A stretch of DNA of 38,513 nucleotides from positions 1-38,513 of IMG/VR virus record IMGVR_UViG_3300008113_000654; one strand, given 5' to 3'. Source of the stretch: a virus. Position numbers and translations under genes: made by a program. The notes beneath the pieces are model-generated. The model searched no databases, was not told the origin of the DNA, and saw nothing but the letters and a program-made list of their open reading frames with translations. Below, piece after piece: positions 1,255 through 38,513 of this stretch (positions are counted from its first letter, which is position 1; each line of letters begins with the position of its first letter).

Positions 1255-1323
1255 ATCCTATAGTGTGACGCTGTTGTCGAACTACACTAGCATCATTGCA
1301 ACGACGACACTAAATGAAATGGC

Positions 1324-2106
1324 ATGGCTGATCAGCAAAGCAATGATGGACTTCGTGAACTCGCATTGTTCGCCGGAGCAGGTGGCGGCATCCTTGGGGG
1401 CAAGCTCCTCGGATGGAGAACCGTCTGCGCCGTCGAATGGGAACCCTATCCCGCAAGCGTACTGTGCGCCCGACAAAACGACGGTTTTCTCCCGCCTTTC
1501 CCGATTTGGGATGACGTTCAAACCTTTGACGGAAGACCGTGGCGAGGCATTGTTGATGTCGTATCGGGCGGCTTTCCCTGTCAAGACATTTCCGCCGCAG
1601 GAAGTGGAGCCGGGATTGACGGAGAGCGATCAGGGATGTGGCGAGAAATGGCGCGGATCGTTCGTGAAGTACGACCGCAGTACGTCTTCGTGGAAAACTC
1701 ACCAATGCTCACTTCTCGGGGGCTTGGACGAGTTCTTGGAGACTTGGCCGCAATGGGGTTTGATGCGCGATGGGGAGTGTTGGGAGGTGACGCCATCGGA
1801 ATCAACACAAAAAGAGATCGAATTTGGATTTTGGCCTACACCCACGAAGTCAGACGGCGTGCAACACGGCAAAGAAAAATGGATCGCAAATTCGCGGTCA
1901 AAACGAAGTTCCCTTGGAAAAACAGCGCCAACAGAGAGGATTACTTACGTTTATTTCGAAAGCAATATTCCGATGAAGTTTTATCCCGAGCTTTCAGAGG
2001 AATTGATGACATGGCCCAAAGGATGGACGCGCTTGGAGCCATTGGAAATGGACAAATTCCGGGAGTGGCAGCAACAGCATGGCTCGAACTGAGAAAACAA
2101 CTTTGA
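1324..2106 (+). CDS. dcm: DNA (cytosine-5) methyltransferase
   Basis: This 260-residue enzyme should transfer a methyl group from S-adenosylmethionine to carbon 5 of cytosine in phage DNA. The C5-MTase motifs are in order: motif I LFAGAGGG (15-22), motif II AVEWEPYPASVL (36-47), motif IV SGGFPCQDIS with the catalytic Cys86, motif VI ENSP (124-127, usually ENV), motif VIII KRDRIWILA (163-171), and motif X GNGQIP (241-246). It is shorter than typical enzymes (over 320 residues), with only ~60 residues for target recognition. The start is the ATG at 1324; a strong Shine-Dalgarno sequence is not obvious. It is the first gene of the plus-strand operon and most likely protects phage DNA from host restriction. 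A second protein-like frame lies inside it. Confidence 0.9.
   Translation: MADQQSNDGLRELALFAGAGGGILGGKLLGWRTVCAVEWEPYPASVLCARQNDGFLPPFPIWDDVQTFDGRPWRGIVDVVSGGFPCQDISAAGSGAGIDGERSGMWREMARIVREVRPQYVFVENSPMLTSRGLGRVLGDLAAMGFDARWGVLGGDAIGINTKRDRIWILAYTHEVRRRATRQRKMDRKFAVKTKFPWKNSANREDYLRLFRKQYSDEVLSRAFRGIDDMAQRMDALGAIGNGQIPGVAATAWLELRKQL
1511..2092 (+). CDS. nested gene overlapping dcm in the +1 frame; W-rich phage protein
   Basis: A 193-residue frame starting MTFKPLTEDRGEALLMSYRA lies wholly inside the methyltransferase gene. The frame is open from 1265 to 2092. It contains KYDRSTSSWKTHQCSLLG, FLETWPQWGLMRDGECWE, FWPTPTKSDG and a C-terminal MTWPKGWTRLEPLEMDKF. I recognise this arrangement from phage proteins usually annotated as hypothetical and often found with dcm genes. 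It encodes no known catalytic motif. The start could be this ATG or further upstream, and there is no clear ribosome binding site. Because dcm is conserved, a conserved shadow frame is possible. The long open frame, the well-formed tryptophan-rich C-terminus and the family resemblance favour a real overprinted gene. Confidence 0.5.
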   Translation: MTFKPLTEDRGEALLMSYRAAFPVKTFPPQEVEPGLTESDQGCGEKWRGSFVKYDRSTSSWKTHQCSLLGGLDEFLETWPQWGLMRDGECWEVTPSESTQKEIEFGFWPTPTKSDGVQHGKEKWIANSRSKRSSLGKTAPTERITYVYFESNIPMKFYPELSEELMTWPKGWTRLEPLEMDKFREWQQQHGSN

Positions 2107-2214: not shown

Positions 2215-2949
2215 GTGATTCACTACCACGGCACTCCCATTGGTGGCCCGCGCAAGGATGCGGCGCGATTCTTAGCCGGTCGCCACGCCCTTGTGCCTTT
2301 TAGCTACCCTGACGACATCGGCATCGTTGCCGAGGTCTGCCAGTCGTTTTGCCTAGACAACGGTGCGTTTACTGTGTGGAAACAGGGCGGCAAACTTGAT
2401 GTGGATGGTTATATCAGGTGGGTGGCAGAGTGGCACCGGCACCCCGGCTTTGACTTTGCTTTGATCCCTGATGTTATTGATGGCACGGCTCAGGAAAACG
2501 ACGCGCTAGTTGAGAGATGGCCGAAGGTGCTGAACGGTGTTCCCGTTTGGCATATGCATGAACCCACGCCAAGGCTCACTTGGTTGGCAAGACGGTTTAG
2601 GACGGTCGCTTTGGGGTCGAGCGGGGAGTTTTCTTCGGTCGGCACCCCGCAATGGTGGGGCAGGATGAAGCAAGCAATGAAAGCCGTGTGCGACGAGCAA
2701 GGCCGACCGTTTTGCAAGCTGCATGGGCTTCGGATGCTTGACCCTGACATCTTTACACGCCTGCCCTTGTCGTCTGCCGACTCAACCAATGCGGCAGTCA
2801 ATTCGGGATCACTTAGTCGGTTTGGTTCGTATCTGCCCCCTACCGTGGCGCAACGCGCAGAAGTCATTGCCGAGCGTATTGAGGCAAACAACTCAGCACC
2901 GGCATTCATTGAAACGCAGGAGGAACTGTGCTTTACATTGCAATCGTGA
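2215..2949 (+). CDS. tRNA-guanine transglycosylase/DpdA-like TIM-barrel protein
   Basis: This 244-residue protein starts GTG (2215; GTG 2209 is an alternative). Its motifs line up with the TGT superfamily: DNGAF (48-52) at the place of the DSGGF catalytic Asp, IPDVIDG (84-90), ALGSSGE (132-138) like the GG/AVGE loop, and LHGLRMLDPDIFTRL (169-183) leading to ADST (188-191), where the second Asp of TGT lies. TGT enzymes exchange guanine for a 7-deazaguanine base; phage DpdA proteins do this in DNA. It is much shorter than bacterial TGT (about 370 residues) and has no Zn-binding Cys cluster. The next gene, overlapping it by 22 bases, is a precursor transporter, which supports a 7-deazaguanine role. 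The family is likely; whether the substrate is DNA or tRNA is inference. Confidence 0.55.
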   Translation: MIHYHGTPIGGPRKDAARFLAGRHALVPFSYPDDIGIVAEVCQSFCLDNGAFTVWKQGGKLDVDGYIRWVAEWHRHPGFDFALIPDVIDGTAQENDALVERWPKVLNGVPVWHMHEPTPRLTWLARRFRTVALGSSGEFSSVGTPQWWGRMKQAMKAVCDEQGRPFCKLHGLRMLDPDIFTRLPLSSADSTNAAVNSGSLSRFGSYLPPTVAQRAEVIAERIEANNSAPAFIETQEELCFTLQS

Positions 2950-3407
2950 TCTATGCCGTTGCTATGACGGCAGCCAACCTAACCATCGCCGCATTTGGGC
3001 CGTGGGTCAGCCCGATCAATGCTTTTTTCTTGATTGGCCTTGACCTGACCCTGCGCGATTGGTTGCAAACGCGACTGAATCAGCTTCAGATGCTATGCCT
3101 AATCATTGCATCAGGGTTGGTTACCTATCTTGCCAACCCATCGGCGCACATGATTGCGATTGCCTCAGCAGTCGCGTTTACCGGAGCCGCCTTTGTGGAT
3201 TGGTCGGTGTTTACGAAGGCCAAAGGAACTTGGTTTGCTAAGGCCAACAAGTCAAATGTCGCCGGTGCTGCGGTTGATTCGCTGATCTTCCCGACCATTG
3301 CGTTTGGGTCATTGATGCCGCACATCGTCCTCATGCAGTTTGCGGCAAAAGTCGGCGGTGGCTTTGTTTGGTCTTATGTCTTCTCAAAAGTCAGGGGCAA
3401 TGGATGA
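2928..3407 (+). CDS. VUT-family (YhhQ-like) queuosine-precursor transporter
   Basis: This 159-residue integral membrane protein has about five hydrophobic spans. It starts GTG 2928 behind a strong GGAGGAA (2918-2924), inside the end of the preceding gene. Diagnostic stretches are FGPWVSPINAFFLIGLDLTL near the N-terminus and AGAAVDSLIFPTIAFG plus QFAAKVGGGFVWSYVF near the C-terminus, typical of the VUT/YhhQ family. E. coli YhhQ imports preQ0/preQ1; the phage protein is shorter than YhhQ (~220 residues) but keeps these signatures. Paired with the upstream TGT-like protein it would bring in the 7-deazaguanine base to be inserted into nucleic acid. The family call is good; the transported compound is inferred. 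Confidence 0.75.
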   Translation: MLYIAIVIYAVAMTAANLTIAAFGPWVSPINAFFLIGLDLTLRDWLQTRLNQLQMLCLIIASGLVTYLANPSAHMIAIASAVAFTGAAFVDWSVFTKAKGTWFAKANKSNVAGAAVDSLIFPTIAFGSLMPHIVLMQFAAKVGGGFVWSYVFSKVRGNG

Positions 3408-3748
3408 TCGCCCTTCCTGAATGGATCGACCCCGAGGCTTGGGAAGGCTTTTGCGAGATGCGTAAGGCAATGAAGAAGATTCCCTTCACCGACCGCGCAC
3501 AAAAGATGGTGCTGAAGTCCCTTTATGACCTACGCGCTGCCGGACATGACCCCAATGCTTCCCTCGACCAATCGACGCTGATGGGTTGGCGCGATGTGTT
3601 CCCGCCTAGAGCCAAGGAAATCCCTGTGGTGCGCTCTCAAGCCGAAGAAACATCACGCTATCTTGCCGAGCAAGAACGGCACCGCCAAGCAAATAAAAAC
3701 AGTTTTGCGCGAATCGCAGCACTCCAAGCGATTAAGTTGATCCGATGA
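3404..3748 (+). CDS. small protein resembling the C-terminal domain of phage replication proteins
   Basis: This 114-residue protein starts at an ATG overlapping the transporter stop (ATGA). The first ~65 residues (W-x-x-F-C-E-M-R-K ... TDRAQKMVLKSLYDLRAAGH ... ASLDQSTLMGWRDVFP) follow the pattern of the helical C-terminal domain of DnaT/O-like replication initiators, in which helices end in a conserved GW-x-x-xFP. The tail is charged (RSQAEETSRYLAEQERHRQA). It lacks the N-terminal DNA-binding part of such initiators. It may help load the host helicase; this is inferred from similarity alone. Confidence 0.5.
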   Translation: MIALPEWIDPEAWEGFCEMRKAMKKIPFTDRAQKMVLKSLYDLRAAGHDPNASLDQSTLMGWRDVFPPRAKEIPVVRSQAEETSRYLAEQERHRQANKNSFARIAALQAIKLIR

Positions 3749-4098
3749 TTAAAGTCAACGCCATGTGTCAAGCGCAGCTTGTGAAGCTGTTGCTTGAGGG
3801 CACCCACACTTGTTACGAACTTGCCCAAGCAACGGGGCTGCACTATTGCCGTGAGCTTCACAAAGCCGGTGCTGCCCACATTGCGATGTGGGAAAAAGAC
3901 AGCAGAGGACGCGATTTGCTCAAGGTCTACAAGTTGGGACAGGGCAAGGATGCCAAGCGTCGAAGGATGACTTCGGCAGAGCGTCAAAGGAAATACCGAG
4001 AAAAAAAGAAGCACGCTGAGATGCTGCAAGTAACGACAGGGAACGGTGAGTACGAAGCCCGCGCCAATGGGCGTATAGCTTTTAAGGTGGCATCGTGA
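3745..4098 (+). CDS. helix-turn-helix phage protein with basic tail
   Basis: This 117-residue protein starts at an ATG overlapping the previous stop by four bases. Residues 1-45 form a winged-HTH-like segment (QAQLVKLLLEGTHTCYELAQ, then ATGLHY), followed by a strand region (AAHIAMWEKDSRGRDLLKVY) and a very basic stretch (KDAKRRRMTSAERQRKYREK). Such proteins are common in phage early operons and probably bind DNA as regulators. The recognition helix looks shortened: after GLHY the sequence jumps to CRELHKAG, where related proteins have several more residues. It may therefore be altered in DNA binding. Confidence 0.55.
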   Translation: MIKVNAMCQAQLVKLLLEGTHTCYELAQATGLHYCRELHKAGAAHIAMWEKDSRGRDLLKVYKLGQGKDAKRRRMTSAERQRKYREKKKHAEMLQVTTGNGEYEARANGRIAFKVAS

Positions 4099-4346
4099 TT
4101 TCGTGCATGGGCGGGTGGTGCGACCGCAGAGAAAAGTGCCTGTACTACCAATACCCTTCTATCAACCATGTCGAGCGACTATGTGAGGACGGCAGCTATG
4201 ACGCATTTGTATCGAGAGTTTCACTTGCGCGACCTGAGCGTGTGGAACACCTTTGTGGCCTTCGTGGGGTCGAACGCGAAAGCAATGGCCGACGCGGGGA
4301 CTCCCCTGCGGCTTATCGTCACCACCGCAGAGACAAAGAGGAATAG
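4095..4346 (+). CDS. small Cys-rich phage protein overlapping ninB
   Basis: This 83-residue protein starts GTG 4095, overlapping the previous stop (GTGA). The first ~38 residues carry a compact Cys pattern (ISCMGGWCDRREKCLYY ... ERLCEDG), possibly a metal-binding knuckle, of a kind recurrent in phage early regions. The rest (150 bases) overlaps ninB in another frame and is Arg-rich with no recognisable pattern, so it may have been created by overprinting. Function unknown. Confidence 0.5.
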   Translation: MISCMGGWCDRREKCLYYQYPSINHVERLCEDGSYDAFVSRVSLARPERVEHLCGLRGVERESNGRRGDSPAAYRHHRRDKEE

Positions 4347-4611
4347 TGAACAAAACAAACGCTATTGGGGGCTTGTTCTCAAGACCATAGCCGCGACCGC
4401 TTGGGTCGATGGTCAGCAGTTCTCAGCAGATGTGTGGCATGAGTTCTTTGCTCGGAAATTTGGCGTTTGTGAGGATGTGACGCTGCCCGGCGGTGAGGTG
4501 GTGACCCGCCGCCGCAGTACGACAGACATGAGCGTGTCGGAGTTCACCACCTACATGAACGAAGTCGAGTCCTACGCCGTGCAGCAACTTGGAGTGACTT
4601 TTGATGCGTGA
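4198..4611 (+). CDS. ninB: NinB/Orf family recombination protein
   Basis: This 137-residue protein starts with ATG 4198. The hallmark is PLRLIVTTAETKRNSEQNKR followed by YWGLVLKTIAATAW, the core of the NinB fold, then W-H-E-F-F (fkar) and a C-terminal helix ending near the stop. Lambda NinB (Orf, 146 residues) binds single-stranded DNA and SSB and can replace RecFOR in loading recombinase. Length and motifs fit well. It is in the recombination part of the early operon together with SSB, ERF and YqaJ. Confidence 0.85.
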   Translation: MTHLYREFHLRDLSVWNTFVAFVGSNAKAMADAGTPLRLIVTTAETKRNSEQNKRYWGLVLKTIAATAWVDGQQFSADVWHEFFARKFGVCEDVTLPGGEVVTRRRSTTDMSVSEFTTYMNEVESYAVQQLGVTFDA

Positions 4612-5407
4612 TCCATTCAAAATCGACGGCCCGACCTGCATCAGCTTTTCGGGGGGGCGCACTTCGGCCTATATGTTGTGGCGCGTGCTCCAAAGCAATG
4701 GTGGCTTGCCTGATGAAGCTGTTGTGTGCTTTGCCAATACCGGCAAGGAAGATGAGGCAACCTTGGAATTTGTGCGTGACTGCCAAACGCATTGGAATGT
4801 AGAAATTAATTGGCTTGAGTTTCGTCCCGAGGCTCCGCACTTTGCTTTGGTGAACTTTGAGACCGCGAGCAGACAAGGCGAGCCGTTTGCATCTTTGATC
4901 GAAAAGAAAAAGTATCTTCCAAACACATTTGCTAGGTTTTGCACAACTGATTTGAAGATTGTGCCCATGAAGCGTTTTATGGCATCTCGCGGCATGGATG
5001 AACATTGCACTTTTATTGGAATCCGCGCTGATGAGCCAAGGCGAGTCGCCAAAATGCGCGACAACAAAGACGAAAAGATTACTCCGCTTGCATCTGCCAA
5101 TGTAGGCAATCAAGACGTTTTGGCATTTTGGAATGCTCAAGCATTCAATCTTAAAACGGTGACTGTGGAAGGAAATTCATTGTTAAGCAATTGTGATCTT
5201 TGCTTCTTGAAAAAACCTTCTCATTTGCTGAACTTGATCAAAGATGCGCCACAAAGGGCTACATGGTGGATCAATCAAGAAAATCGCATCAATGCTCGAT
5301 TCAATCAAGGCATTCCTTCCTATGCGGAAATGCTGAAGTTTTCTCAGTCACAAGCGGATATGTTTGATCCTAGTGAAGAAGCTATTGCGTGCTTCTGTGG
5401 TGAGTGA
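4604..5407 (+). CDS. PAPS reductase-like PP-loop (CysH-like) phage enzyme
   Basis: This 267-residue protein starts ATG 4604, 9 bases after GGAG and overlapping ninB by 8 bases. It has the PP-loop SFSGGRTSAYML near residue 16, FANTGKEDEATLEFV, CTTDLKIVPMKRF, FIGIRADEPRRV, a conserved CDLCF pair and a C-terminal CFC. This is the adenine-nucleotide alpha-hydrolase fold of PAPS reductases, common in phages, where it may act in sulfur transfer to DNA or RNA or in nucleotide metabolism. The gene is visibly richer in A+T than its neighbours (about 35% G+C at 5161-5220 against about 63% at 5761-5820, counted by hand), suggesting a recent arrival. No DndDE-type partners are present. Confidence 0.8.
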   Translation: MRDPFKIDGPTCISFSGGRTSAYMLWRVLQSNGGLPDEAVVCFANTGKEDEATLEFVRDCQTHWNVEINWLEFRPEAPHFALVNFETASRQGEPFASLIEKKKYLPNTFARFCTTDLKIVPMKRFMASRGMDEHCTFIGIRADEPRRVAKMRDNKDEKITPLASANVGNQDVLAFWNAQAFNLKTVTVEGNSLLSNCDLCFLKKPSHLLNLIKDAPQRATWWINQENRINARFNQGIPSYAEMLKFSQSQADMFDPSEEAIACFCGE

Positions 5408-5408
5408 A

Positions 5409-5714
5409 ATGCACAAGTATCCATACGTCAGGGACAAGCGCATCCTTGAGTTTTGCCGCACGCTTCCCTGTCAGTCATGTGGGATCGACAACGGCACCAT
5501 CGTGGCCGCGCACTCAAATCAAAGCATTCACGGCAAAGGTCGCGGGATCAAGGCTTCAGACCAGTACGTCGCAGCCCTTTGCTATGAGTGCCATTACGAG
5601 GTTGATCAGGGTCGCCTGTGCCGACAGACCAAACAGATGATTTGGAACGAAGCCCACGAGCGCACCAAAAGGCTTTTGCAGCTAGAAGGACTTTGGCCTA
5701 ATGAGCAACCCTGA
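5409..5714 (+). CDS. DUF1364/Ref-like HNH-type nuclease
   Basis: This 101-residue protein starts at ATG 5409 (GTG 5400 is an alternative), two bases after the previous stop. It contains PCQSCG, then AAHSN and GIKASDQYVAALCYECHYEV ending in the dipeptide DQ. This is the Cys-x2-Cys / His / Cys-x2-Cys-His arrangement of DUF1364 and Ref-like phage recombination nucleases with a beta-beta-alpha metal site. In the lambda nin region and P1 such proteins help recombination. Position between the PP-loop gene and another nuclease fits a DNA-processing role. Confidence 0.65.
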   Translation: MHKYPYVRDKRILEFCRTLPCQSCGIDNGTIVAAHSNQSIHGKGRGIKASDQYVAALCYECHYEVDQGRLCRQTKQMIWNEAHERTKRLLQLEGLWPNEQP

Positions 5715-6021
5715 AGAATTGTTCGCCTTGCATCTCCGCGCTTTGCGGGTGCCCGACCCGGTGCGGGAGTACAAGTTCCATCCCAAGCGCCGGTGGAGGC
5801 TCGACTTCGCGTGGCCTGATGAACTGATCGCCGTCGAGATCGAAGGCGGCGTGTGGACAGGTGGAAGACATACGACGGGCGTGGGCTTTACCCTTGACTG
5901 TGAGAAGTACGCCGAAGCGATCTGCCGAGGTTGGACGATCCTGCGGGTCACAAGCGCACAGGTCAGCAATGGTCAGGCAATTGATTGGCTTACTAGGGTT
6001 TTCACCCTTAAAACACGCTAA
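5701..6021 (+). CDS. PD-(D/E)XK-type phage endonuclease
   Basis: This 106-residue protein starts at ATG 5701, overlapping the previous gene by 14 bases. It shows the sequence YKFHPKRRWRLDFAWPDE, then IAVEIEGGVW, then a helix DCEKYAEAICRGWTILRVTS. LDFAW...VEIEGG supplies the Asp and Glu-x-Glu metal ligands of a short restriction-endonuclease fold, as in Vsr/DUF559-like or resolvase-like phage nucleases. The compact size is usual. Its exact DNA substrate cannot be told. Confidence 0.65.
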   Translation: MSNPEELFALHLRALRVPDPVREYKFHPKRRWRLDFAWPDELIAVEIEGGVWTGGRHTTGVGFTLDCEKYAEAICRGWTILRVTSAQVSNGQAIDWLTRVFTLKTR

Positions 6022-6054
6022 CATCTGACGACAATAGAGCTTTTACGGGACTAG

Positions 6055-6198
6055 ATGATGACGCTACCACTTTCCCCAAACAAACAACAAAACCCCCTTG
6101 GGTGGCCTTTTGGAGCCTTACCACCCAAGGAGCTTGCGCGCCTGCTTGCCGAGCAGAAACGCGACAAACTTGCCAAGGCTCCACCCTCTCCCTTCTAA
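6055..6198 (+). CDS. small hypothetical protein
   Basis: This 47-residue frame begins MMTLPLSPNKQQ and ends AKAPPSPF. It contains FGALPPKELARLLAEQKRDK, a short amphipathic helix with charged C-terminal half. It fills the gap between the nuclease and ERF and sits immediately before the ERF start region. A perfect 10-bp inverted repeat (6096-6105/6121-6130) lies in it. Function unknown. Confidence 0.45.
   Translation: MMTLPLSPNKQQNPLGWPFGALPPKELARLLAEQKRDKLAKAPPSPF
6096..6130. repeat. perfect 10-bp inverted repeat inside a small gene
   Basis: ccttgggtgg (6096-6105) and ccacccaagg (6121-6130) are perfectly complementary around 15 bases. On the minus strand the stem is followed by GGGTTTTGTTGTTTGTTT, so it could act as a weak terminator of antisense transcription. 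On the plus strand no T-run follows. Confidence 0.5.
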
Positions 6199-6212
6199 GT
6201 GAAAGACAAGAC

Positions 6213-6770
6213 ATGAAACAGATAGCACAAGCCTTCGTAAAGGCGCAAAAGGCATTCGCCCCTGCGCTCAAGACTTCCTCAAACCCTCACTTTAAAAGCC
6301 GATACGCCGACCTTGCCGCTTGCGTCGAGGCAGTCATTGATGCGCTGAATGCAAACGGCATCGCCCTGATTCAGCAGACGCACGAATGCACCGATGGCGT
6401 GATTGTGGAAACGTCTTTGCTGCATGAGTCGGGTGAGGTGATCAGTGGGGGCAAGCTCCATGTACCCGCCGCTAAGCAAGACCCGCAGGGCTATGGCTCG
6501 GCTTTGACCTATGCCCGCCGGTACTCGCTCATGGCGACCTGTGGCATCGCACCGGAAGACGACGACGGGAATGCCGCTTCTAAGCGTCCTGACCCCGATT
6601 ACGCCGCTTTTGAGCGTCAGTGGCTCCCTATGCTTCAGGATGCCGCAATGGAAGGCGTAGCGGCCCTAAATAAGCAGTTTGCGGCCATGCCCAACACGGG
6701 ACAGAAGCGAGCTTTGTGGGCGGCGCATGGGCCTTCCCTTAAGAATGCAGCAGAGAAGGCGGGCACATGA
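6213..6770 (+). CDS. erf: ERF-family single-strand annealing protein
   Basis: This 185-residue recombinase starts at ATG 6213 in the AAGACAAGACATG context. The longer upstream frame is an artefact, since homology begins at MKQIAQAFVKAQKAF. The ERF core is clear: SNPHFKSRYADLAACVEAV, LNANGIALIQQT, DPQGYGSALTYARRYSLMAT and CGIAPEDDDGN. ERF (P22 type) proteins form rings and anneal complementary single strands made by a partner exonuclease, here the YqaJ-type protein downstream. The C-terminal ~60 residues are variable and may bind SSB or DNA. Confidence 0.92.
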   Translation: MKQIAQAFVKAQKAFAPALKTSSNPHFKSRYADLAACVEAVIDALNANGIALIQQTHECTDGVIVETSLLHESGEVISGGKLHVPAAKQDPQGYGSALTYARRYSLMATCGIAPEDDDGNAASKRPDPDYAAFERQWLPMLQDAAMEGVAALNKQFAAMPNTGQKRALWAAHGPSLKNAAEKAGT

Positions 6771-7003
6771 GCGAAATCCAATCAGACATTGACCTTCTTT
6801 GGATGGTCAACAGCGCAGACATTGACGCCTTGGAAGATGCGCGAATGACCTTGCAATCAATCAAGGAAGCAGACCCCGGCACCTACGATGAAATCATTGA
6901 TCAGTCGCTGTCTTTGATCATGAAGGCGTTGAGCATGACGCCGGGTGGTGCGATTGAAAGAATTGTTGAAAAACTAAATGCAACGGAGGAAACATTGAAA
7001 TGA
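6767..7003 (+). CDS. small acidic hypothetical protein
   Basis: This 78-residue, strongly acidic and helical protein overlaps the erf stop (ATGA). Stretches such as DIDALEDARMTLQSIKEADP suggest two or three helices. No family is recognised. It lies between ERF and the YqaJ exonuclease in a chain of start-stop overlaps, so it is translationally coupled and may assist recombination. Confidence 0.6.
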   Translation: MSEIQSDIDLLWMVNSADIDALEDARMTLQSIKEADPGTYDEIIDQSLSLIMKALSMTPGGAIERIVEKLNATEETLK

Positions 7004-7182
7004 ACAAGCCCAAAGCAATAAGGATGGACATTACTGATCCGACTAAGAACAAAAACGACAAGTATTTGATCACGGTCAAGGTCACGAACACATCCAAGAC
7101 GCCAGTCGCCAAGTTGGAGTGTTACGGGTCTTACGACAAGACAACCGTGGATGCAATTTTGAATTTGATGGGGGTCAAGTGA
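7000..7182 (+). CDS. small hypothetical protein
   Basis: This 60-residue protein starts at an ATG overlapping the previous stop. A beta-rich central part (KYLITVKVTNTSKTPVAKLE) is followed by a short helix (KTTVDAILNLMG). It is Lys-rich at the N-terminus. It overlaps the next gene by a TGATG junction. Function unknown. Confidence 0.55.
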   Translation: MNKPKAIRMDITDPTKNKNDKYLITVKVTNTSKTPVAKLECYGSYDKTTVDAILNLMGVK

Positions 7183-7403
7183 TGAAAAACAAAGAAGCAA
7201 AAGCCTTGGAAAAGGAATACAACGAAACGATTGAACGTGGTCGTGAGTTGTGGGAGCAGATTCAGCCAATGGCTGACAGATGCAATGCGATCCTAAAAGA
7301 ACTGCGGGATGCAAAAGTGCCATTCGATGAAATCGCTTTGATCTTTGGCGGTGAATTGCAAGTGGAAACATCAGGCGGTGATGACAATGAGGTGTGGCAA
7401 TGA
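7182..7403 (+). CDS. small helical hypothetical protein
   Basis: This 73-residue protein starts at ATG 7182 in a TGATG junction; longer upstream starts run into the previous gene. It is a charged, probably coiled-coil helix (KNKEAKALEKEYNETIERGR ... ILKELRDAK) with an acidic end. It is coupled to the YqaJ gene downstream. No family is recognised. Confidence 0.55.
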   Translation: MKNKEAKALEKEYNETIERGRELWEQIQPMADRCNAILKELRDAKVPFDEIALIFGGELQVETSGGDDNEVWQ

Positions 7404-8005
7404 TGGAACAGAAATCACCTGAATGGTTCGCCGCCCGTCTAGGCAAGGCCACGGCATCTCGAATTGCCGATGTGATGGCAAAGACAAAGACAGGCTATGG
7501 GGCTTCGCGGGAAAACTACCTGATGGAGCTTGCCTTAGAACGCATCACCAATGCCCAAGCGCCGTCGTTTATGAACGCCGCGATGCAGTGGGGGGTGGAT
7601 CAGGAACCCGCAGCCCGATCAGCCTATGAGTCCACAACAGGGAACTTTGTGACCGAGGTGGGGATGATCGACCATCCGACGATCCCCATGTCCGGGGCGT
7701 CGCCTGACGGGTTTGTCGGGGAGGATGGGCTTATTGAGATCAAGTGCCCCGAGTCCAAGCAGCACCTGAAGAACCTGTCCACGCGCAAGCCTGACACGAA
7801 GTACGTCTATCAAATGCAGTGGCAGATGGCGTGTACGGGTCGGAAGTTCTGCGAGTTCGTGAGTTATGACCCACGCTTCCCTGACCACCTTCAGATGTTG
7901 ATTGTCAGGGTTGACCGCGATGACGCACTGATCGCGGAGATTGAAAAAGAAGTGCGTTTGTTTCTAGATGAAGTGACCAAGATGGTCGAAAGGATTTCCC
8001 AATGA
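7400..8005 (+). CDS. YqaJ-family phage exonuclease
   Basis: This 201-residue lambda-exonuclease-type recombinase nuclease starts at ATG 7400 (ATG 7403 possible) overlapping the previous stop. The motifs are in order: SPEWFAARLGKATASRIADV near the start, MQWGVDQEPAARSAYE, MSGASPDGFVG with the catalytic Asp, LIEIKCPESKQHL (Glu-x-Lys), and YQMQWQMACTGRKFCEFVSY. It degrades one strand of duplex ends to give single strands for ERF. Length and motif order fit the family, and erf plus ssb flanking it make a complete annealing-type recombination module. Confidence 0.92.
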   Translation: MMEQKSPEWFAARLGKATASRIADVMAKTKTGYGASRENYLMELALERITNAQAPSFMNAAMQWGVDQEPAARSAYESTTGNFVTEVGMIDHPTIPMSGASPDGFVGEDGLIEIKCPESKQHLKNLSTRKPDTKYVYQMQWQMACTGRKFCEFVSYDPRFPDHLQMLIVRVDRDDALIAEIEKEVRLFLDEVTKMVERISQ

Positions 8006-36607: not shown

Positions 36608-38287
36608 TTACCACTCTAGCGTGCGGAAGCCAAACGAATCGGCGGTGTAAACATTGTCCAAGTGGCAGTGCACGGCCATGATCATGGCGATGATGCCGTC
36701 AATCTTGGCTGACGGGTCGGCTGCGTTCTTCCTGACTTTGACATTGGCGTTGATGTCCACGAAGCATTCGCAGTTCCCCAGTTGCCAACCAATAAAGGGA
36801 TTACCCGAATGCTTGATTGCCCCCTTGAGAATCAACTGCTCAGTCGTCTTTGAGGGGTTAGACAGAACCGCCATGCCCTGCCCGACCTTTTTAACCGGCA
36901 AGCCCTTGCCGTAAAGATTCGCCACAAGAGCCGCTGCGTTATAAGGGTCGTACGCAATTTCCTTCACCTCGTACTTCTCCGATTGGGAGGTAATGTAAGC
37001 CTCCACTTCGTTTAAGTCGGTGACATTGCCTTGCGTCAACTTTAGGATGCCGCTTTGCCGAGCCTGATCAAAGATCGACAGGTAATGGTTGGGAACAAGG
37101 CTCAGGGACTCTTCGGGCAGGAAGAATTGAAACTCTGCATAGAAGTCCTCTTCCCCGTAGCGGTGCAGGGTGCAGACCGCGTTTAGGTCGCGGGAATGCG
37201 CCAAGTCAAAGGCGATGAAGGTGGATTCGGGCTTGTCCTCCGGCATCGGGGCTACCGAAGCATCCCAGTGCTTGCGGTCTACCCAGGCCGCGTTAGCCGA
37301 GACATACACATTGAGTTGCTTGCACAAGAACTCGTTAAGGCTTGCCGGTTTAGCCGCCGCCTCATCTGCCATGTGCTGAATGTGCTCAGTCGTGACCGAA
37401 ACCCCCAACATGGGGTTCGCCTTGCCCCAGGTGGACTGATCCCGCCAGTTGTCGCCCTGATCAATCGAATAGCACAACCCGAACCACTTGCCCGCATCCG
37501 GCACATCGCCCCGAAGCAGGCTGCGAAAGTAGGTCAGGTCTTCAAAGAACTTGGTTTCGCGGGTGAAAGAAGCGGTGGTCATGTAGACCCGAAGCGGGTT
37601 CTTCCGTGCCCCCATGCCCGAGTGCAGCACCTCAATGGAGGATCGCTCGGTGATCTGAGCCGCCTCGTCTATCAACGCACAAGAGGGATTCTTGCCGTCA
37701 CCCGTCTTGCGGGTGTCTCGAGACAACGCCCGATAGGTCGAGGTGGTGTCACCCTGCTTCTTAATCTCGCTGCGAAAGGTGATGAACTTAGCCGCAAGCG
37801 TTTCGTGCATCGCCTCCACGATGGCTTTGGAGGAATCGAAACAGATGCTTGCCTGCTCGCGGCTTGTCGCAAGCGTAAAGACTTCCGCGCCTGCATCGCC
37901 GAACATCAGTTCGTACAGGGCTACGATGGAGGCAAGTGTAGTCTTTCCCGACTTGCGCGGGACAAACAAAATGACATCGGTGACCCACCGCCGGGAATGG
38001 TCTGCCTTGTCCCGAAAGCCGTATACGCCCGCCAGGAACAGGACTTGGAACGGCTGCAAGACGATGGGCTTGCCCGCATCCGGTCCCTTTACATGGCGGC
38101 AGAACCCGACAAACTTTAGGATGTGCTCGGCTTTGGACGGGACGAATTCGTAAGGCGCATCCTTACGCTCTGCCATGTCCAAGAACCGCTGACAAGCTAA
38201 CCGAACATCCTCACAGGCGGCAATGTCGCCCCGAGTCACCGAGGCGGCATACTGAAACGCCGAGTCAAGCAGTGGCGAATAACTCAT
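36608..38287 (-). CDS. terL: terminase large subunit
   Basis: This 559-residue packaging motor starts at ATG 38287, overlapping TerS by 23 bases. The ATPase part has Walker A VPRKSGKTT (109-117), Walker B CALIDEAAQ (203-211) and the coupling segment VYMTTASFTRETKFFEDLTY. The nuclease part has FIAFDLAHSRDLNAV and VKEIAYDPYNAAALVANLYG, with KIDGIIAMIMAVHC near the end. This is the Terminase_1 family. It pumps DNA into the prohead through the portal encoded next. Confidence 0.95.
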   Translation of the reverse strand: MSYSPLLDSAFQYAASVTRGDIAACEDVRLACQRFLDMAERKDAPYEFVPSKAEHILKFVGFCRHVKGPDAGKPIVLQPFQVLFLAGVYGFRDKADHSRRWVTDVILFVPRKSGKTTLASIVALYELMFGDAGAEVFTLATSREQASICFDSSKAIVEAMHETLAAKFITFRSEIKKQGDTTSTYRALSRDTRKTGDGKNPSCALIDEAAQITERSSIEVLHSGMGARKNPLRVYMTTASFTRETKFFEDLTYFRSLLRGDVPDAGKWFGLCYSIDQGDNWRDQSTWGKANPMLGVSVTTEHIQHMADEAAAKPASLNEFLCKQLNVYVSANAAWVDRKHWDASVAPMPEDKPESTFIAFDLAHSRDLNAVCTLHRYGEEDFYAEFQFFLPEESLSLVPNHYLSIFDQARQSGILKLTQGNVTDLNEVEAYITSQSEKYEVKEIAYDPYNAAALVANLYGKGLPVKKVGQGMAVLSNPSKTTEQLILKGAIKHSGNPFIGWQLGNCECFVDINANVKVRKNAADPSAKIDGIIAMIMAVHCHLDNVYTADSFGFRTLEW

Positions 38288-38513
38288 CAACTTCGGTCGG
38301 CTTGTTCACTTTCTTCGGGCGACCACGGGAAACAAGACCCATCTCGCCAAGAATCTTGATGATCTTGTCAATGGACTCGTTGCGCAGCTTCGTCCAAGCC
38401 GAACTGCCGACACCCGAGGCATAGACCGCCACCGCGCCTTCCTCGTTGATTCGCTCTTGCGCTTGAATCAGGGACTCAGCCACCAAGATCAGAGCCGCGA
38501 TTAGGGTTTCATC
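38265..38513 (-). CDS. terS: terminase small subunit, C-terminal part (P27-like, cut by the right edge)
   Basis: The frame stays open from the right edge to the stop at 38265, giving at least 82 residues; the start lies beyond the window. It contains VAESLIQAQERINEEGAVAV, WTKLRNESIDKIIKILGEMG and the basic end SRGRPKKVNKPTEVDELFAT, typical of P27-type small terminases. It should bind DNA and hand it to TerL, whose start it overlaps. An internal TTG at 38486 is not a credible start, because the same protein pattern continues upstream. Confidence 0.75.
   Translation of the reverse strand, partial: DETLIAALILVAESLIQAQERINEEGAVAVYASGVGSSAWTKLRNESIDKIIKILGEMGLVSRGRPKKVNKPTEVDELFATA

Follow-up and report, generated by a model that had tools for sequence, protein, structure and literature searches.

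A phage C5-cytosine methyltransferase gene overlapped by a +1 reading frame that probably encodes the second subunit of the enzyme

A C5-cytosine methyltransferase gene in the window, a virus record of 38,513 bases, is overlapped over its entire length by a second reading frame, and selection acts on both. The methyltransferase frame is referred to as D and the protein of the +1 frame as W. With a probability of roughly 0.8, the pair is interpreted as a naturally split C5-methyltransferase, D and W being its subunits in a layout like that of M.EcoHK31I, with W carrying motif IX and probably the target-recognition domain (TRD). Judged from its sequence, the locus represents a known type of split methyltransferase in a variant with whole-gene overlap and twin starts. 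Among DNA phages, full gene overlaps with conservation of both proteins are rare, and proof of them is difficult.

Layout of the locus and start of the second frame

The features of the gene pair are as follows.

1324..2106, + strand: D, putative catalytic subunit of the C5-cytosine methyltransferase, 260 aa, with motifs I, IV, VI, VIII and X
1319..2092, + strand: W, putative second subunit in the +1 frame, 257 aa, with its ATG 5 nt upstream of the D start
1511..2092, + strand: shorter W of 193 aa from an internal ATG, a possible second start suggested by conservation of the Met
1360..1389, + strand: D motif I (LALFAGAGGG), from the sequence and M.HhaI alignment
1567..1593, + strand: D motif IV (GGFPCQDIS, with the catalytic Cys), from the sequence and M.HhaI alignment
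1687..1704, + strand: D motif VI (FVENSP), from the sequence and M.HhaI alignment
1813..1836, + strand: D motif VIII (RDRIWILA), from the sequence and M.HhaI alignment
1826..1969, + strand: probable counterpart of the target-recognition region in W (FWPTPTKSDG...), from W-like codon phase and LPTPxxxD blocks seen by eye; a variable linker in the D frame
1970..2029, + strand: W motif IX (PMKFYPELSEELMTWPKGWT), from hhalign against the C-termini of single-chain C5-methyltransferases
2017..2091, + strand: D motif X (QRMDALGAIGNGQIPGVAATAW...), from hhalign against the same single-chain set

D matched Pfam PF00145 (E 5e-28) and PHROG 363 (E 2e-58) and has the catalytic PCQ and the cofactor motifs of the PF00145 fold by which a C5-cytosine methyltransferase is recognised; motifs I, IV, VI and VIII bear their customary numbers. 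Of the other two defining parts, motif IX was located in the +1 frame and the TRD, to judge by codon phase, probably lies there too.

The +1 frame is free of stops over 1265-2092 and can be read from the ATG at 1511 as described in the initial annotation, which had proposed a nested gene of about 580 bases (1511-2092). The second frame is real, but the overlap extends over the whole gene, and W of the window probably starts at ATG 1319 rather than 1511. A start was found in 126 of 131 distinct loci; counted upstream from the residue that aligns with ATG 1511, the first start codon is 52 codons away in 107 loci (as ATG) and 61 codons away in 13. In the commoner class, mostly ATG, GTG or TTG stands at D codon 10 and the bases that follow form the W ATG, immediately before which a W-frame stop was present in 107 sequences; the Asn codon 11 of D, from which this ATG is formed, was AAT in 109 of 109 cases, compared with 466 of 1095 Asn codons elsewhere. 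A single initiation site serving two frames is the evident reading of this class. The second class (MAWLISK...), in which the W ATG precedes the D ATG, includes the window, and no obvious Shine-Dalgarno sequence was seen by eye before 1319. The Met aligned to 1511 was present in 125 of 131 distinct loci, and of the 127 D sequences aligned, 120 had GAT at D codon 63, which lies over this ATG.

Upstream of the methyltransferase pair, the gap contains an inverted repeat of 28 nt (arms 1040-1067 and 1129-1156, 86% complementary, 61 nt apart) with no match in Rfam, and a DUF5856 protein whose function is not known is encoded at 346-744 on the - strand (PF19174, E 2e-19). Downstream, on the + strand, a queuine tRNA-ribosyltransferase-like protein (2203-2949, PHROG 887, E 2e-69) is followed by a transporter of the Vut_1 family (2928-3407, PF02592, E 2e-9), a pair that suggests that a 7-deazaguanine base is imported and used, possibly in the modification of phage DNA. 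Replication and recombination genes (O-like initiation protein of PHROG 678, NinB, PAPS reductase-like protein, ERF and YqaJ) and a large terminase, located at 3368-8002 (+) and 36608-38290 (-), identify the virus as a tailed phage.

Purifying selection on the +1 frame

An open +1 frame might be merely a shadow of D, produced by the D protein and base composition, and in the window alone the probability of a stop-free +1 frame was 0.0032 (20,000 synonymous shuffles of D, mean 4.0 stops), which leaves some room for this explanation. The N-terminal half of W also partly mirrors conserved D residues (e.g. TWPxWGL under DLAAMGFDARW of D), and W is less conserved than D over codons 13-120. The related loci were decisive. 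IMG/VR was scanned twice, by W and by D, and 80 loci were obtained from each scan. Scattered +1 stops in relatives, which the initial annotation had named as evidence against a second gene, were absent from 84 distinct loci (L081-L168, 80 fetched by D and then 8 by W, before de-duplication): over the stretch of the W hit, 0 were observed and 320.5 were expected from synonymous shuffles, while the +2 frame of the same loci contained 1078 stops against 900 expected. In a codon alignment of 127 sequences, D codons 63-254 contained 0 +1 stops against 576 expected, summed over four regions (0 against 157 in codons 63-120, 208 in 121-172, 92 in 173-225 and 119 in 226-254), and codons 12-62 contained 5 against 76. 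Between motifs IV and IX, none of the 180 motif-typed overlapping loci had a W-frame stop.

A scan of bacterial genomes with the W alignment provided 57 further loci (Pseudomonas, Acinetobacter and others), all 57 of which had a stop-free W hit, a proportion biased towards intact W by the use of W to pick them, and 56 of which showed the +1 relation to D. Among the exceptional bacterial loci, L226 is a fragment and L222 differs; the latter (L222:3001-3984, from a Gallionella MAG) joins the N-terminus of W and the C-terminus of D in one open frame and represents a frameshift or a fusion.

When the W sequences of 23 chosen loci were compared with that of the window, 20 scored higher than all 100 synonymous shuffles, and those of the distant phages L227, L229 and L233 were no nearer to it than shuffles. 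None of 19 single-chain ORFs had a stop-free +1 frame (86 stops against 115 expected), and this loss of the open frame in single-chain relatives counts against a shadow ORF, as does the better conservation of codons 169-240 in the W frame. A shadow origin is refuted for the family by the synonymous shuffles and the single-chain controls and is hardly credible for the window. The +1 frame is judged from these counts to be real and under selection, with purifying selection in both frames.

Distribution of conserved motifs between D and W

Synonymous constraint in the two frames, the measurement of which had been suggested in the initial annotation, was followed by codon phase in 57 matched pairs. 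Over D codons 13-120, the third position was more variable than the first in 57 of 57 pairs, which is the D-frame pattern; over codons 169-240 the first position was more variable than the third in 50 pairs, against 5 with the opposite, which is the W-frame pattern, the gappy alignment of codons 181-216 adding noise but no phase bias; and over codons 241-254 the D-frame pattern returned (53 pairs against 4). Within codons 217-240, the 4-fold sites of D showed differences of only 0.045-0.058, against 0.15-0.37 for D residues. Conservation thus follows the D frame in the catalytic part and at motif X, and the W frame between them.

The order D, W, D could also be the trace of a single reading path, on which programmed frameshifting would lead from D into W after motif VIII and back into D before motif X to give one chain, and single-chain relatives do exist. 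Such a path requires the frame to shift twice, in opposite directions, within the same gene, and it leaves unexplained why a W start is conserved next to the D start and why stops are depleted in the W frame upstream of motif VIII (codons 12-172) and in the D frame between motifs VIII and X; it is considered improbable.

Two subunits are favoured by the placement of the motifs. D aligned only to residues 10-176 of M.HhaI, i.e. motifs I-VIII, and its motif X was found by hhalign against the single-chain C5-methyltransferase set (E 6.3e-6); neither motif IX nor the usual TRD was detected in D by the M.HhaI alignment or by hhalign against that set. The methyltransferase frame, previously described as complete, is complete in its catalytic motifs and lacks a detectable motif IX and usual TRD. 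The C-terminus of W matched the in-frame motif IX of single-chain phage C5-methyltransferases with an hhalign probability of 95.1 (E 3e-8) over 20 columns only, and is motif IX; hhalign found no relation between W and D (E 0.47). This tryptophan-rich segment had been taken for the exact +1 shadow of motif X; it is more than that, 1970-2029 lying mostly upstream of motif X. W probably supplies the TRD as well, as indicated by the codon phase and the LPTP blocks seen by eye.

The assignment of W to a recurring phage family was borne out. The PHROG 1008 profile matched W of the window (E 3.8e-15, residues 44-202 on positions 7-161 of 329), other W proteins (K1H, 1e-55; Jacopo, 6e-72), gene 5 of phage Murai, which encodes the TRD and motifs IX and X (E 4e-42), and the in-frame C-terminus of the single-chain enzyme L241 (E 2e-59). 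W gave only a sub-threshold match in Pfam and none in NCBIfam, its profile gave 2 unrelated matches to PDB sequences (best E 0.19), and the A2 profile gave no meaningful match to PDB. W was also considered as a free-standing fold, which was rejected on the poor AlphaFold2 model of W alone (40 sequences; pLDDT 50.7, pTM 0.22). This model fits a subunit that would fold only with its partner and equally a peptide that does not fold.

W might instead be an overprinted accessory protein with a task of its own, e.g. anti-restriction or regulation, beside a D that is a complete enzyme. W is intact in five loci with a premature D stop (L039, L171, L178, L181 and L201, of which L178 was less closely inspected than the other four), which may reflect decay, error or a separate role of W, and no relative of W's N-terminal half is known outside this overlap. 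This explanation is unlikely in view of the motif IX at the C-terminus of W, the inclusion of the in-frame C-terminus of single-chain methyltransferases in the W family and the lack of a detectable motif IX in D. Of the two functions raised in the initial annotation, a methyltransferase partner is the best reading, and nothing points to an anti-restriction protein except through methylation. Overprinting, also raised there, applies in part: W looks overprinted in its N-terminal half, and so does D in the segment that separates motif VIII from motif X. The C-terminal part of W belongs to the enzyme itself, as motif IX and probably the TRD, both of which are encoded in the methyltransferase frame in single-chain relatives.

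In the proposed mechanism of the split enzyme, the two ATGs 5 nt apart would start translation of both chains, which would be made from one message and so in coupled amounts. D would bring the catalytic domain (motifs I-VIII) and motif X and W would bring motif IX and probably the TRD, and on assembly the two would form a single enzyme, which would methylate phage DNA at its target sequence and may protect it from host restriction.

Relatives and known split methyltransferases

The C-terminal half of W was found in 345 phage records at E up to 10, and in the annotated phage records inspected W lay in the +1 frame of D, both genes being annotated in K1H and Jacopo. Motifs were typed by regular expressions in 316 sequences (315 loci, of which L169 is the window, and the window slice; many are near-duplicates). 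Motif IX was in the +1 frame and motif X in the 0 frame in 180, all motifs were in one frame in 20, 2 were odd and 94 had an incomplete motif set; a further 20 had motifs IX and X in the +1 frame, a class of true splits of the Murai type and probable regex mispairings that was left out as a count of splits. To judge by these sequence searches, the two-frame arrangement is found widely among phages and prophages.

In Mycobacterium phage Murai (L230:801-1752), two nearly adjacent genes with a short overlap are in different frames: motifs I-VIII are encoded by gene 6, and gene 5, which is in the +1 frame, encodes the TRD, the W-like VNPAFAEWMMGWPDGW and motif X. The single-chain enzymes, which entered the sample via the scan with Murai gene 5, have LxxxxxEWMMGxPxGW and GNGVCPQQ in the catalytic frame, and W-like LLPTPxxxD blocks were seen by eye in the in-frame TRD of some. 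The model of one of them (L311, pLDDT 78.6) matched M.HhaI along its whole length (Z 22.7; rmsd 4.7 for 244 residues), with model residues 15-317 on chain residues 10-322 and the EWMMG segment between the TRD and motif X. The overlapping class formed one side of a branch with 99/99 support in a tree built from 49 catalytic domains, the other classes having been sampled through one query and not by a survey. A tentative extension, rather doubtful at present, is that the recognition segment is a dual-coded specificity cassette, functional in both frames, which a small indel would move into or out of the catalytic frame while the twin start sets the subunit balance; on this view, one enzyme family would occur in several frame states, namely single-chain, adjacent-split and fully overlapped.

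In M.EcoHK31I, the gene for the small chain is nested within that for the large chain in another frame, and M.EaeI is a naturally split C5-methyltransferase of the same kind; activity in this type depends on both polypeptides. M.EcoHK31I is described in an excerpt of PMC3404938 as two polypeptides, the larger with motifs I-VIII and X and a predicted TRD and the smaller with motif IX. Going by this description, D and W resemble it in the distribution of motifs I-VIII, IX and X and may differ from it in the bearer of the TRD, for which the codon phase over D codons 169-240 favours W; here the second frame also covers the whole gene, with adjacent starts. In M.AquI, according to the same excerpt (PMC3404938), motifs I-VIII and motif IX are likewise on separate chains, but motif X is on the small chain and not, as here, on the catalytic one; its counterparts in this sample are Murai genes 6 and 5. 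Enzymes of the M.HhaI type, whose motifs I-VIII are matched by D and whose whole fold is matched by the single-chain relatives, have one chain with every motif in one frame. PHROG 1008 ('DNA methyltransferase'), the nested 'Mte8-like protein' of K1H and gp57 of Paenibacillus phage Jacopo represent the family of W and its +1 nesting within D; in K1H and Jacopo, however, W begins within D and the N-terminal half of the +1 frame is partly closed, whereas in the class of the window it is open from the D start. The K1H protein appears only as a gene name in an excerpt of PMC5582158, and no published description of this overlap in phages was found in a literature search that did not exhaust the topics.

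The second protein of this overlap can be tested for a definite role, that of the half that a known enzyme lacks, and the single-chain form of the same enzyme provides a natural control set. The two-frame layout explains why either frame bears the public labels 'methyltransferase', 'Mte8-like' or 'hypothetical protein', and it suggests that clones of phage methyltransferases made from only the D frame may lack activity.
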